Shown here piece by piece: positions 18,587 through 27,181 of a DNA stretch of 64,000 nt. Every line of letters starts with the position of its first letter. Position 1 is the stretch's first letter. A program made the position numbers and the translations under genes. Source of the stretch: Desulfolutivibrio sulfodismutans DSM 3696. GTDB lineage: Bacteria > Desulfobacterota > Desulfovibrionia > Desulfovibrionales > Desulfovibrionaceae. Location of the stretch: positions 2,625,001-2,689,000 of the forward strand of contig NZ_CP045504.1 of NCBI RefSeq assembly GCF_013376455.1, written 5' to 3'. The notes under the pieces were generated by a model that saw nothing but the letters and a program-made list of their open reading frames with translations, was not told where the DNA came from and made no database searches.

Positions 18587-20248
18587 ATGCGCAGCGATCA
18601 CGGAAAGAACATCGTCACCTGCGAAGGCAACACCTTCATCATCAGCGCGGCCCTGTCCGGAGGACGCGTGGCCGAGGCCTGGAGCACGGGCAGGATGATT
18701 CATGACATGAACTACCTGCTGGGCGCCGAGGTCGGCCCGGACGGGCCGCGATTCACCACCCGAGCCTCCTGTCTCTGCAACGCCGGGCACGCCCTGGCCG
18801 CCGTCCGGGCCGTCGAGGATCTTCTCGGGCTGGCCGTGCCGCCTGCCGCACGACTGGTGCGCGACCTGGCCCAGGGACTGCAATGGGTGTCCGAGCACCT
18901 GGGGCATTTTTATCTGTTCCACCTCTCGGACTGGGTCAACCTGGGGCTGGCCCTGCGCGCGGACCCCGCAAAGAGTGCGCGCCTGGCGCAGGACGATTCC
19001 CCCATCCCTGCGGCGGGCGGCGGGCAGTTCTACCTGGACGCCGCGGAACGCCTGAAGGCCCTGGCCGAGGGCGAGAGCGGCGAATTTTTTGCCGTCGGGG
19101 ACTGCGACCACCCGGCCTATGCGGCCTCCCCGGAATGCAGCCTGCTGGCCTTCAGCCATGTGCCTGAGGCCATCCGCGTCCGGGCCGCCCTGGCCGAGGC
19201 CCTGGCCGTCCTGCGATGTACCGGCGCGCAGCACCCGGCGTTTCAGGTCGGCGGCCTGGCCGACAGCGCCGGGACATCCCCCGGCGACGCCCCGGACCTG
19301 TCGGCCGCAGCGCGCGACCGGTGCGCCAGCCTGGTGCGCCAGTGCCGGGACTTCATCCTGTACACCTTTTTGCCCGACATCCTGCGCGTGGCCGACGCCT
19401 ACCGGGACTGGGCGGGCATCGGCCGAACCGGCGTCTTCCTGGCCTTTGCCGACCTCCCCGGGGAGGATGGCCAGCCCCCGTTTTCTCCCGGCGGGATATT
19501 CACCCCGGGCGGCGTCCTTAAGGCCCCTGCGGACGCATTGCGCATGGCCTGGGAGGACGGCGAAACGGCCTGGAAAGGGATCGACGCAGACCACTACCGG
19601 CTGCGTTTCGGGCCGGGCCAGCCGGTCTACCGCTTTCCATCCGACGACTTTGTGTGGTTTGGCGTCCCCCGCAGCGCCGGTCTGGCCTGCGAGGTGGGCC
19701 CCCTGGCCCGGATGTGCGGGGCCTACGCAACGGGCAACGGCGTGGTGCAGGCCGTCGTGGACGACGCCCTGCGCCGACTGAACCTGCCCCTTGCGGCCAT
19801 AAACTCCACCCTGGGCCGAATGCTGGCCCGGGGTCTTGAGGCCGCCGCCCTGATCCAGACCGCCCTGTCCTGGCTGGACAGCCTGGACCGCTGTCTGGCC
19901 CGCGGGGACGCAGCCCTTCGGGCCGCCATCCATGACATCCCGGCCTCGGGCGAGGGCACGGGCAAGGCCGAGATCGCCAGGGGGGCGCTGGCGCATCGCA
20001 TCCGCATGGAAGACCGGCGCATCGTCCGGCATGAGTCCCTCGTGCCCTCCCTGTGGAATTTTTCCCCGCGCAGCGCCGACGGGACACGCGGCCCCCTGGA
20101 GCAGGCCCTTCTCGCCACGCCCGTGGCCGACGCCGCGCGCCCCCTGGAGATCCTGCGCACGATACACTCTTTCGATCCCTGCAACGCCTGCATCCTCCGG
20201 GTTGAGGACGCAGGCGCCGGGCGCGTGATGACCGTCAACGCCAAATAG
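18587..20248 (+). CDS. [NiFe]-hydrogenase large-subunit homologue with altered active-site motif
   Basis: 553 residues from ATG 18587, which has GGAAG eight bases upstream; ATG 18497 would add 30 residues without a good site. Clear large-subunit marks: CEGN for the usual EGH near residue 12, HALAAVRAVEDLLG, EVGPLARM and STLGRMLARGLEA. At the C-terminus is an intact DPCNAC (Cys532, Cys535). After it come ILR and 15 more residues, so a maturation protease could cut after Arg538. The N-terminal site, normally RxCGxC, is RASCLCNAGH: Cys62 and Cys64 only, with Ser61 where the first Cys belongs. No small subunit is in the window. It heads an operon with radical SAM, Nif-like and hypCDE genes. A Ni-Fe-type site with changed ligands is the likely cofactor; the reaction is unknown. 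Confidence 0.85.
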   Translation: MRSDHGKNIVTCEGNTFIISAALSGGRVAEAWSTGRMIHDMNYLLGAEVGPDGPRFTTRASCLCNAGHALAAVRAVEDLLGLAVPPAARLVRDLAQGLQWVSEHLGHFYLFHLSDWVNLGLALRADPAKSARLAQDDSPIPAAGGGQFYLDAAERLKALAEGESGEFFAVGDCDHPAYAASPECSLLAFSHVPEAIRVRAALAEALAVLRCTGAQHPAFQVGGLADSAGTSPGDAPDLSAAARDRCASLVRQCRDFILYTFLPDILRVADAYRDWAGIGRTGVFLAFADLPGEDGQPPFSPGGIFTPGGVLKAPADALRMAWEDGETAWKGIDADHYRLRFGPGQPVYRFPSDDFVWFGVPRSAGLACEVGPLARMCGAYATGNGVVQAVVDDALRRLNLPLAAINSTLGRMLARGLEAAALIQTALSWLDSLDRCLARGDAALRAAIHDIPASGEGTGKAEIARGALAHRIRMEDRRIVRHESLVPSLWNFSPRSADGTRGPLEQALLATPVADAARPLEILRTIHSFDPCNACILRVEDAGAGRVMTVNAK

Positions 20249-20270
20249 GCGGCTTGGGAAGGACGACGAT

Positions 20271-21284
20271 ATGGACGCAAAAGACATTCTGGCCGCCCTG
20301 CAGGATGAAGCGGGACAAGAGAACCTGTTCCGGCAGGCCGACGAGGTGCGCAGGCGATACTGCGGCGACGTGGCCCAGCTTCGCGGCGTGGTGCATTTCT
20401 CCAACTGCTGCTGCCGCGACGACCTGTATTGCGGCCTGCGCAAAAGCAACACGGACATCAAGCGGTTCCGGATGACCGGGGACCAGATCGTGGAGACGGC
20501 CATGGCCATTGCCGAGGCGGGCCTTGGCACCGTGGTCCTGCAATCCGGCGAGGACTACCACTACACCCGGGAGCTGCTGTGTTCCGTCATCCGGCGGATC
20601 GTGGACAACGCCGACGTGGCCGTCACCTTAAGCCTGGGGGAGCGGCCCGACGACGACCTGCGGGCCTTCCGGGACGCCGGCGCCAGCCGCTACCTCATGA
20701 AGCACGAGACCATGAACCCGGATCTCTACGCCAGGATGCGCCCCGGGCTGCGGCTTACGGATCGGCTGCGGACCATCGAGACCCTGCGCTCCCTGGGCTA
20801 CCAGACCGGGGTGGGCAACGTGGTGGGCCTGCCGGGACAGACGGATGAGGATCTCGCTGCGGACATCGCCTTTTTCCAGGACTTTCAGCCGGACATGGTC
20901 AACATCGGCCCGTTCATCCCCCACGCGGACACGCCCCTGCGCGGCGAGGCGGTCGGCGACATGGACCGCATGCTCCGGGTGTTCGCCCTGACCCGGATCG
21001 TGACCGGAAACACCCATCTGGCGGCGGCCAACACCGTGGCCACCCTGGCCCCCGAGGACGGGCAATACCGGGCCTTTGTCCAGGGCGGGGCCAACGTGAT
21101 CATGCCCAACTGCAACCCCTTTCTCAAAAGCAAGACGGACAAGATCGAATACGAATTCCAGATCACCACGAAAAAACGCTACGTCTCCATCGCGGAGGCC
21201 AAAGACGTCCTGCGCCGGGCCGGACGGGAGACGGCGGCGGGAAAAGGGGATTCCCTCAAGATGCAAGGAGGAACTTGTGATTAA
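20271..21284 (+). CDS. HydE/PylB-like radical SAM protein with altered cysteine motif
   Basis: 337 residues; GAAGGACG precedes ATG 20271. The whole sequence follows the HydE / methylornithine synthase / biotin synthase-like barrel: [59 protein letters not shown] and PNCNP. HydE normally starts SNxCxxxCxYCGLR. Here it reads [14 protein letters not shown]: Cys46, Cys47, Cys48 and Cys54, but the middle cluster Cys (position 51) is Asp. A [4Fe-4S] cluster might still form with other Cys from the CCC run, or SAM chemistry may be lost. HydE acts in [FeFe]-hydrogenase cofactor assembly, so a cofactor-building role is likely here. The stop overlaps the next start by 8 bp. Confidence 0.85.
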
Positions 21285-26175: not shown

Positions 26176-26176
26176 C

Positions 26177-27181
26177 ATGTCCGATCGAATTCTTCTGGAT
26201 TGCGGCAGCGGCGGCCGGGCCTCCCACCGGCTGGTGGCCGACCTTTTCCTCAAACACCTGGGAAATCCGGAACTCAACCGGCTCAACGACGCGGCCTGCC
26301 TGAACCTGAAAAGCCCCCTGGCCATGAGCACGGACACCTTCACCGTGGACCCGATCTTCTTCCCGGGCGGGGACATTGGATCCCTGGCCGTGCACGGCAC
26401 GGTCAACGACGTGTCCATGCTCGGGGCCATTCCCCGCTACCTGACCTGCGGATTCATCGTGGAGGAAGGCCTGGAGACGGACGTTCTGGCACGCGTCGTG
26501 GCCTCCATGGGAACGGCCGCCCGGGAGGCCGGGGTGCTGGTGGTGGCCGGGGACACCAAGGTGGTGCCCCGGGGGATGGTGGACAAAATCTTCATCAACA
26601 CCACCGGGGTCGGGGAAATCTTCGTCGACCCGACCCCCTCGGGCGACCGCGCCCGGCCGGGAGACGCCATCCTGGTCACGGGCAGCATGGGCGACCACGG
26701 CCTGGCCGTCCTCTCCACCCGCCAGGGATTGGCCTTCGACACCCCCGTGGTCTCGGACGCGGCCTCCCTGAACCATGCCATCGCCCGGCTGTTGCGCGCC
26801 GTGCCGGAGGTGCATGTGCTGCGCGACCCCACGCGCGGCGGCCTCGGCACCACCCTCAACGAAATCGCCGAGTCCTCGGGCGTGTGCTGCGAAATCGTGG
26901 ACGAGGCCATTCCCGTACGGCCCGAAGTGCGCGACGGCTGCTCCTTTCTGGGCCTGGACCCGCTGTACCTGGCCAACGAGGGCAAATTCCTGTGCATCCT
27001 GCCCGGGGAACTGGCCGATGCGGCCCTCGACGTGCTGCGGGGCGACCCCCTGTGCGCCGGGGCCGTGCGCATCGGCACGGTCACCGACGCCCACCCCGGC
27101 AAGGTGGTGCTGACCACCCGCCTGGGCGGCGCCCGCCTCCTGACCATGCTGGAGGGCGAACAACTGCCGCGCATCTGCTGA
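26177..27181 (+). CDS. hypE: HypE, carbamoyl dehydratase for cyanide ligand synthesis
   Basis: 334 residues, PurM/ThiL-like fold: LLDCGSGGRASHRL, MSTDTFTVDPIFFPGGDIG, GTVNDVSMLG, GDTKVVPRG and DPTRGGLGTTLNEIA. It ends in PRIC, whose Cys receives a carbamoyl group from HypF and is dehydrated to thiocyanate. HypF, HypA and HypB are not in the window and must be elsewhere. Its last 138 coding bases are present a second time at 52869-53011, the right edge of the minus-strand island, so the gene end seems to have been the site of an insertion or duplication. This copy is complete. Confidence 0.94.
   Translation: MSDRILLDCGSGGRASHRLVADLFLKHLGNPELNRLNDAACLNLKSPLAMSTDTFTVDPIFFPGGDIGSLAVHGTVNDVSMLGAIPRYLTCGFIVEEGLETDVLARVVASMGTAAREAGVLVVAGDTKVVPRGMVDKIFINTTGVGEIFVDPTPSGDRARPGDAILVTGSMGDHGLAVLSTRQGLAFDTPVVSDAASLNHAIARLLRAVPEVHVLRDPTRGGLGTTLNEIAESSGVCCEIVDEAIPVRPEVRDGCSFLGLDPLYLANEGKFLCILPGELADAALDVLRGDPLCAGAVRIGTVTDAHPGKVVLTTRLGGARLLTMLEGEQLPRIC

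Follow-up and report, generated by a model that had tools for sequence, protein, structure and literature searches.

A 64,000-nucleotide stretch of the genome of Desulfolutivibrio sulfodismutans DSM 3696 (contig NZ_CP045504.1, positions 2,625,001 to 2,689,000; hereafter the window) contains an operon of eight plus-strand genes at 18587-27181, which encode relatives of [NiFe]-hydrogenase and Hyp proteins, of the [FeFe]-hydrogenase maturase HydE and of nitrogenase. The operon is likely to be an alternative pathway for maturation of the H-cluster of [FeFe]-hydrogenase that takes the place of HydG and in several genomes also that of canonical HydE. Three genomic observations carry this conclusion: the operon was linked to HydF and HydAB, HydG was lost in most carriers, and the two kinds of genes shared loci. 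The replacement of HydG by the operon is well supported by the genomics; the chemistry is inferred.

An earlier note on this DNA had interpreted the operon as a system for building or repairing a new Ni/Fe organometallic site, with a lone hydrogenase large subunit as the final host. An organometallic iron site is still what the operon most likely builds. Gene neighbours and the pattern of presence and absence pointed to the H-cluster of [FeFe]-hydrogenase as the target, and not to a new Ni/Fe site, which was not supported. The interpretation was therefore partly supported, and the observation behind it was confirmed.

Genomes, loci and families are labeled as follows: G000 is the genome that contains the window, f1 is its family, and f39 is another family of the same phylum.

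The eight-gene operon

Each of the eight genes was supported by Pfam or NCBIfam profile matches, which bore out the earlier description of same-strand genes joining Hyp, HydE-type and nitrogenase-type parts:

18587..20248, plus strand: [NiFe]-hydrogenase large-subunit-like protein (LSU-like), 553 amino acids; PF00374, E 2.3e-99, 334 bits (cut-off 25.8)
20271..21284, plus strand: HydE-like protein of the radical S-adenosylmethionine (SAM) fold; TIGR03956, 260.7 bits (cut-off 254.6); motif CxxxDxxC
21277..22043, plus strand: NifH-like ATP-dependent reductase (NifH/frxC); PF00142 in both pieces; frame broken
22095..23393, plus strand: NifD-like protein, 432 amino acids; Oxidored_nitro PF00148, E 1.4e-25
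23499..24713, plus strand: NifK-like protein, 404 amino acids; Oxidored_nitro PF00148, E 3.1e-25; conserved in relatives
24787..25077, plus strand: HypC, starting with MC; TIGR00074, 51.7 bits (cut-off 48)
25081..26175, plus strand: HypD; TIGR00075, 414.7 bits (cut-off 192.8)
26177..27181, plus strand: HypE, ending with PRIC; TIGR02124, 423.1 bits (cut-off 251.6)

An alternative in-frame ATG for the LSU-like gene lies upstream at 18497. A general profile scan found no hydrogenase small subunit among the eight genes; no profile specific to small subunits was used.

The earlier note had read the gene series correctly except for a frame break in the nifH-like gene, which it overlooked. A C run near 21433 splits the frame into pieces at 21277-21468 and 21435-22043, and comparison of the C run showed that the gene is intact in relatives. 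Measured against G069, omega was 0.15 and 0.22 for the two pieces, 0.23 for NifD, 0.20 for the HydE-like protein, 0.31 for HydF and 0.49 for the LSU-like protein. Purifying selection on both pieces suggested that the break is either a recent mutation or a homopolymer error of assembly. Decay of the whole operon was dropped as an explanation in view of these ordinary omega values.

Conservation of the gene order

The same gene order, which the earlier note had suggested looking for, was found in other genomes. A first scan with the NifD-like protein gave six loci, all in metagenome-assembled genomes (MAGs) titled as members of Desulfovibrionales (L016-L021, the loci of G230, G061, G020, G274, G270 and G024, counted once here). 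All six had LSU, HydE-like, NifH, NifD and NifK in identical order, with only the end of LSU present in L020. HypC came next in five, HypD was present in three (one cut by a contig end) and HypE in two.

All 288 genomes searched for f1 were then considered. A strong match (>800 bits) was obtained in 19, and all 19 loci showed the five-gene order (in G270 only the LSU end, at a contig end). This constancy indicated that the grouping was not due to chance. Ten more of the 288, belonging to genus g41, gave distant matches (150-179 bits) and were tallied separately. A wider search of the phylum, covering 395 genomes, gave two further strong matches in f39 (572 and 575 bits), which brought the carriers to 21.

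The Hyp part was less constant. HypC was found in 13/19 f1 loci, whole HypD in 6/19 and HypE in 6/19, and none of the three in 6/19. These counts, made by one scan of 18 loci and by separate profile searches for the window operon, are lower bounds, because some of the fetched stretches end soon after the operon. HypF adjoined none of the 18 f1 loci tested. In the operon of G260, a genome with HydG, HypD was reduced to its last 35 residues.

Link to HydF and [FeFe]-hydrogenase

In 8 of the 19 f1 loci the stretch fetched also contained HydF, always together with aspA, and several of these eight also contained hydA, hydB and the gene of a TM1266-type regulator. The example assignments of the lyase, TM1266 and HydA were over the NCBIfam cut-offs, and that of HydB rested on PF02256 positions.

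HydF, HydG and the [FeFe] small-subunit domain were sought genome-wide in a sample of 149 genomes, and were found over cut-off in 73, 64 and 90, respectively. Thirteen genomes of the sample matched the NifD-like protein; a weak match in G130 (24 bits) was excluded, leaving 12 carriers. Each of the 12 had HydF together with the [FeFe] small-subunit domain; the operon occurred in none of the 76 genomes without HydF (Fisher p 1.2e-4; phylogeny ignored). For the other nine carriers only the fetched stretches were searched, and HydF was present in five.

The motifs TSCCPxW, MPCxxKKxE and CPGGCxxGGG, which we take to be the H-cluster motifs of HydA, were preserved in 14/14 HydA proteins from 13 genomes (f39 and g41 not included).

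Loss of HydG and HydE in carriers

A whole HydG was absent from 16 of the 21 carriers (8/12 in the 149-genome sample and 8/9 of the remaining carriers). The listed completeness was 99-100% for 13 of the 16 and 81-86% for the other three. Among the 73 genomes with HydF, the operon was present in 8 of the 15 without HydG versus 4 of the 58 with HydG (p 1.6e-4; phylogeny ignored).

Genera g1, g5 and g8 contain both states. By hand tally, 15 of their 20 HydF-containing genomes had HydG only, four had the operon only, one had both, and none had neither. The one with both was the window's own genome, which contains canonical HydE, HydF and HydG at C1:635-642 kb besides the operon.

The local hyd operon that includes HydG has the order hydA-hydB-TM1266-hydG-aspA-hydE-hydF (G128, L065). 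Remnants of HydG were found in the hydG slot of two carriers. In G048, a genome in a single contig, a remnant of 34 residues was left (59% identity, E 1e-11 over the short stretch). In G024, a MAG, an open relic matched HydG residues 1-126 and 420-459, with an overlap where the two meet, which leaves about 320 of 459 residues missing. The remaining hyd genes of both genomes aligned over nearly their full length. A scan of the same slot in G258 gave nothing convincing.

In G069, which belongs to the window's genus, the hyd operon lacked both hydE and hydG, and no remnant was found there. Its nitrogenase-like operon was whole, NifH included, apart from the lack of a following hypE. G069, G020, G061, G104, G121 and G147 had no HydE over the cut-off except the HydE-like protein of the operon.

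Related loci in f39 and g41

In f39 (G360 and G392), one and the same locus contained hydA, hydB, TM1266, aspA, hydF, the HydE-like gene (CxxxDxxC), the NifHDK-like genes and hypF. The hypF matches scored 815.6 and 825.2 bits (cut-off 466.1), and hypC, hypD and hypE were also present in the G360 locus. The search for LSU in these genomes was confined to the two f39 stretches, and neither gave a match.

The g41 loci showed a related arrangement. All ten carried, on one strand, a CxxxCxxC hydE, hydF and two NifHDK-like sets, which stand consecutively between hydF and hypF (L096-L099, L109-L114). Matches to hydA and hydB were found in nine; the tenth locus begins after them. In nine of ten hypF followed. 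Seven had one or more of hypC, hypD and hypE, and the remaining loci were truncated by the end of the contig or stretch. HypC and HypD were over their curated cut-offs. Minor deviations were a distance of 4 kb between hydE and hydF in G177 and a hydF in two pieces in G181. No LSU match was found within the ten loci, the only parts of these genomes searched for it.

HydG was found within none of the ten g41 loci. Three of the ten genomes had a HydG match of 325-333 bits elsewhere, and matches in a similar range (319-365 bits) occurred in G003, G087, G125 and G145, which lack HydF. This suggested that the g41 matches are probably paralogues. A HydG paralogue of about 298-333 bits was seen in G087, G101, G125, G145, G182, G184 and G188 of g41, some of them without HydF; it is possibly another enzyme of the same radical-SAM group.

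Features of the operon proteins

The HydE-like protein matched HydE structures in the PDB (E 5e-78). The middle Cys of the CxxxCxxC motif was replaced by Asp in 20/20 rows of the HydE-like alignment and was Cys in 6/6 canonical HydE rows. A branch with 100/100 support set the HydE-like rows of f1 and f39 apart from canonical HydE; the trees had long branches, and only this grouping was used. One paper reports that mutation of the Cys of this motif in HydE or HydG of C. acetobutylicum resulted in defective maturation (PMC9431212).

The nitrogenase-like proteins were compared with NifDK, for which we assume six P-cluster Cys and Cys275 as the ligand of the FeMo cofactor (FeMo-co). Alignment with the genome's own NifD and NifE showed that the NifD-like protein keeps the equivalents of NifD Cys88 and Cys154 and lacks those of Cys62 and the FeMo-co Cys. 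The NifK-like protein had no invariant Cys before residue 289. The NifH-, NifD- and NifK-like proteins tested fell below every NCBIfam cut-off for NifEN, DPOR, CfbCD and BchXYZ. The best score of the NifD- and NifK-like proteins was 48.6 bits (nifE, cut-off 505.1), and the whole NifH-like protein of G069 scored 268.8 bits against CfbC (cut-off 402). Membership in the nif, bch or cfb families was dropped on these scores.

These scores also bear on the view that the operon encodes a nitrogenase-like reductase acting on a small molecule, like methylthio-alkane reductase or the F430 enzyme, with the hyd genes linked only through electron supply. The model of the NifD-like protein does resemble subunits of nitrogenase, methylthio-alkane reductase and DPOR. 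On the other hand, no nitrogenase-type cut-off was reached, and the Hyp and HydE-like partners and the loss of HydG would be left unexplained. We regard this view as very improbable.

A link to NifHDK-like genes on a Treponema plasmid was also dropped, with 25% identity and neither Hyp nor Hyd genes among the annotations of the 31 kb examined. In that plasmid, of Treponema saccharophilum (L022, 14220-17393), the NifHDK-like trio adjoins an iron-type ABC transporter.

The LSU-like protein fits the [NiFe] large-subunit family in fold and profile. It matched PDB [NiFe] large subunits by sequence with E 3.6e-95. Its AlphaFold model had a pLDDT of 83 and a best Foldseek PDB match of E 6.5e-34, and the 50 matches listed were all [NiFe] large subunits. 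The metal site was compared by alignment with the genome's own canonical large subunit, in which four Cys in two CxxC motifs presumably hold Ni and Fe. Three of these (C64, C532 and C535) were kept and were invariant in 18 rows, and the first Ni-Cys position is Ser in the window. Over 14 rows, two of which are one locus, the first Ni-ligand Cys was kept in 1/13 distinct loci and the proton-gate Glu in 3/13.

One alternative is that the operon serves a separate Ni/Fe or Fe enzyme, either by maturing it or by forming it, with the LSU-like protein as catalytic subunit; the proximity to hyd genes would then reflect only a shared H2 metabolism. The preserved fold and three Cys would agree with this, as would the position of the gene at the head of the five constant genes in f1. 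A near-invariant Cys (C62) lies one place past the lost Ni-Cys and might partly stand in for it. The LSU-like protein is the fastest-evolving of the set, yet it is under purifying selection, and most f1 operons, the window's included, have no HydF within the fetched stretch. On the other hand, the first Ni ligand and mostly the gate Glu are lost, on which ground a new Ni/Fe enzyme was dropped, and no LSU match was found in the f39 stretches or g41 loci. A separate enzyme would also leave unexplained the loss of HydG with its scars and the tie to genomes with HydF. We consider it unlikely. The same results told against the earlier suggestion that the lone large subunit is the final host.

The Hyp proteins retained their characteristic ends. 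HypE ended with PRIC in 5/5 rows (4 distinct loci), and HypC started with MC in 10/10 rows (9 distinct loci).

A possible HydG-independent route

In the known route (PMC13360658), tyrosine is the source from which HydG forms an Fe(CO)2(CN) synthon. After reduction to Fe(I) by HydE the synthon dimerizes to [Fe2(HS)2(CO)4(CN)2]2-, and HydF completes the cluster. When this diiron complex was supplied in synthetic form, it permitted maturation without HydG and HydE (PMC11736057), so the way in which the complex arises should not matter. The product of the Hyp proteins is Fe(CN)2CO, formed on HypCD, and its precursor is carbamoyl phosphate (PMC9002611, PMC4506123).

The operon may represent a second, HydG-independent biosynthesis of the H-cluster, an outline that we put forward tentatively and with less than even confidence. 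It would combine Fe-CN-CO supplied by Hyp proteins, an ATP-driven nitrogenase-like reductase, a HydE-like scaffold whose radical-SAM motif is lost, and, as the template for assembly, a [NiFe] large subunit that has been disarmed. The ligand set would perhaps be unlike that of the textbook H-cluster.

Four steps can be envisaged. First, HypF and HypE would make cyanide from carbamoyl phosphate, and HypCD would assemble an Fe(CN)(CO) unit, in the manner known for these families from [NiFe]-hydrogenase maturation. Second, HypC would pass this unit to the LSU-like former hydrogenase where present, or directly to the HydE-like or NifDK-like protein; in f1 the LSU-like protein may also hold the intermediate. 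Third, the NifH-like ATPase would feed low-potential electrons to the NifDK-like complex, which would reduce or remodel the unit to Fe(I), a state for which HydE otherwise uses radical-SAM chemistry. Conversion to one cyanide per iron may also be a task of the nitrogenase-like enzyme. Fourth, the HydE-like barrel, with one radical-SAM Cys lost, would offer a pocket or scaffold to the diiron unit before its transfer to HydF and then to HydA.

Evidence against the proposal and the remaining alternative

Several observations weigh against the replacement of HydG by the operon. The weakest point is chemical: the Hyp product is Fe(CN)2CO, versus one CN per Fe in the H-cluster, and a conversion is needed. 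The near-invariant C62 of the LSU-like protein, which might take over from the lost Ni-Cys, also counts against the proposal. The six f1 operons without adjoining HypC, HypD or HypE include three in genomes without HydG (G104, G048 and G024). With HypF beside none of those tested, a role of Hyp there would need copies elsewhere. No match to hypC, hypD or hypE was found in the G392 stretch. Ordinary [NiFe]-hydrogenases were present in 12/12 carriers tested, so Hyp genes are expected in these genomes anyway.

The distribution of the Hyd genes also has exceptions. Five of the 21 carriers (G000, G058, G065, G120 and G260) have HydG as well. G024, G048 and G258, f1 carriers without HydG, retain a CxxxCxxC HydE in the hyd operon, as do the g41 loci. 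Seven of the 73 genomes with HydF have neither HydG nor the operon, and no NifHDK or Hyp match was found near HydF in these (L102-L108). The absence of HydG alone is therefore no proof of replacement. One of the seven, G052, is a 54% complete assembly, and G052 and G107 have no detected [FeFe] small-subunit domain. Five of the seven keep hydE adjoining hydF. The pattern may reflect incomplete assembly or a third arrangement.

The literature contains similar cases. Five of eight Clostridium acetogens are reported to be without a HydG that meets the known motifs (PMC9431212). The heliobacterium Heliophilum fasciatum has hydA and no hydEFG, according to PMC9147875, where five NflDK pairs are also reported for it.

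These exceptions might suggest that the operon repairs or reactivates the H-cluster, or aids a side step, with CO and CN coming from an unrecognized HydG substitute or from trace cellular diatomics. The five carriers that retain HydG and the seven genomes without both would be in line with this. So would the about 1% activation obtained in vitro with HydE and HydF without HydG, attributed to trace cell diatomics in PMC9431212. Repair would not account, on the other hand, for HypF in the f39 loci and in 9/10 g41 loci, or for the six carriers that have neither HydG nor any other HydE over the cut-off. We judge it improbable, a little more so than a separate enzyme, and retain the replacement of HydG as the preferred interpretation.

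Implications

According to a review, HydE, HydG and HydF are the minimal machinery, and every microorganism with an [FeFe]-hydrogenase has them (PMC6212873). A survey of open-access literature by title or start of abstract found no paper that links nitrogenase-like or Hyp proteins to the maturation of [FeFe]-hydrogenase. A HydG-free route, if true, would unite the Hyp, Hyd and nitrogenase cofactor systems, so far considered separate. It would give nitrogenase-like reductases a new role, and [FeFe]-hydrogenases a SAM-sparing maturation. It would also account for some of the genomes with [FeFe]-hydrogenase and HydF but without HydG, and would make it possible to test how the [NiFe] and [FeFe] cofactors are related in evolution.

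Neighboring genes

Divergent from the operon, a gene for a heavy-metal P-type ATPase (TIGR01525, 397.8 bits) lies on the minus strand at 15639-17987. On the other side, a long run of minus-strand genes at 27246-52383 (a GldK-like protein, a LolCE-like permease, a TPR protein and large proteins without NCBIfam match) is apparently a system of its own. A tyrosine recombinase gene at 766-2136 adjoins tRNA-Glu and tRNA-Gln, and with a GC content of 0.538 in 1-2000 this region resembles the end of an integrated element.

Nitrogenase genes are also present in this genome. AnfD, the alpha chain of Fe-only nitrogenase (1070 bits), preceded by NifH, lies 12-14 kb beyond the window end (L115, 3990-5555, in G000:C1). 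A further nif locus is at about 4.30 Mb of G000:C1.

Comparison with known systems

The operon loci share with HydE/HydF/HydG maturation HydF, a relative of aspartate ammonia-lyase, the TM1266-type regulator, HydAB and a relative of HydE, in a number of loci adjoining. They differ from it in the absence of a whole HydG from most carriers, in the nitrogenase-like and Hyp proteins found instead, and in the CxxxDxxC motif of the HydE-like protein.

The Hyp pathway of [NiFe]-hydrogenase is represented over curated cut-offs by HypC, HypD and HypE in the window, HypF in f39, and HypC and HypD in g41, and the operon's HypE and HypC have the PRIC and MC ends. Unlike the target of that pathway, the one proposed here is a diiron site, and the first Ni ligand is missing from the large-subunit homologue.

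Like nitrogenase and its NifEN/NifB assembly system, the operon has an Fe protein and a two-subunit NifDK-type partner beside a protein of the radical-SAM fold, a functional parallel to the logic of NifH, NifEN and NifB. In contrast to nitrogenase, the NifD-like protein is without the equivalents of Cys62 and the FeMo-co Cys.

Methylthio-alkane reductase, CfbCD and DPOR are likewise nitrogenase-like reductases outside N2 fixation, and 9fmg and 9d9u were among the best PDB matches. Identity to the 9fmg and 9d9u chains in the fold search was 15-18%, and the gene partners of the operon are different from theirs.

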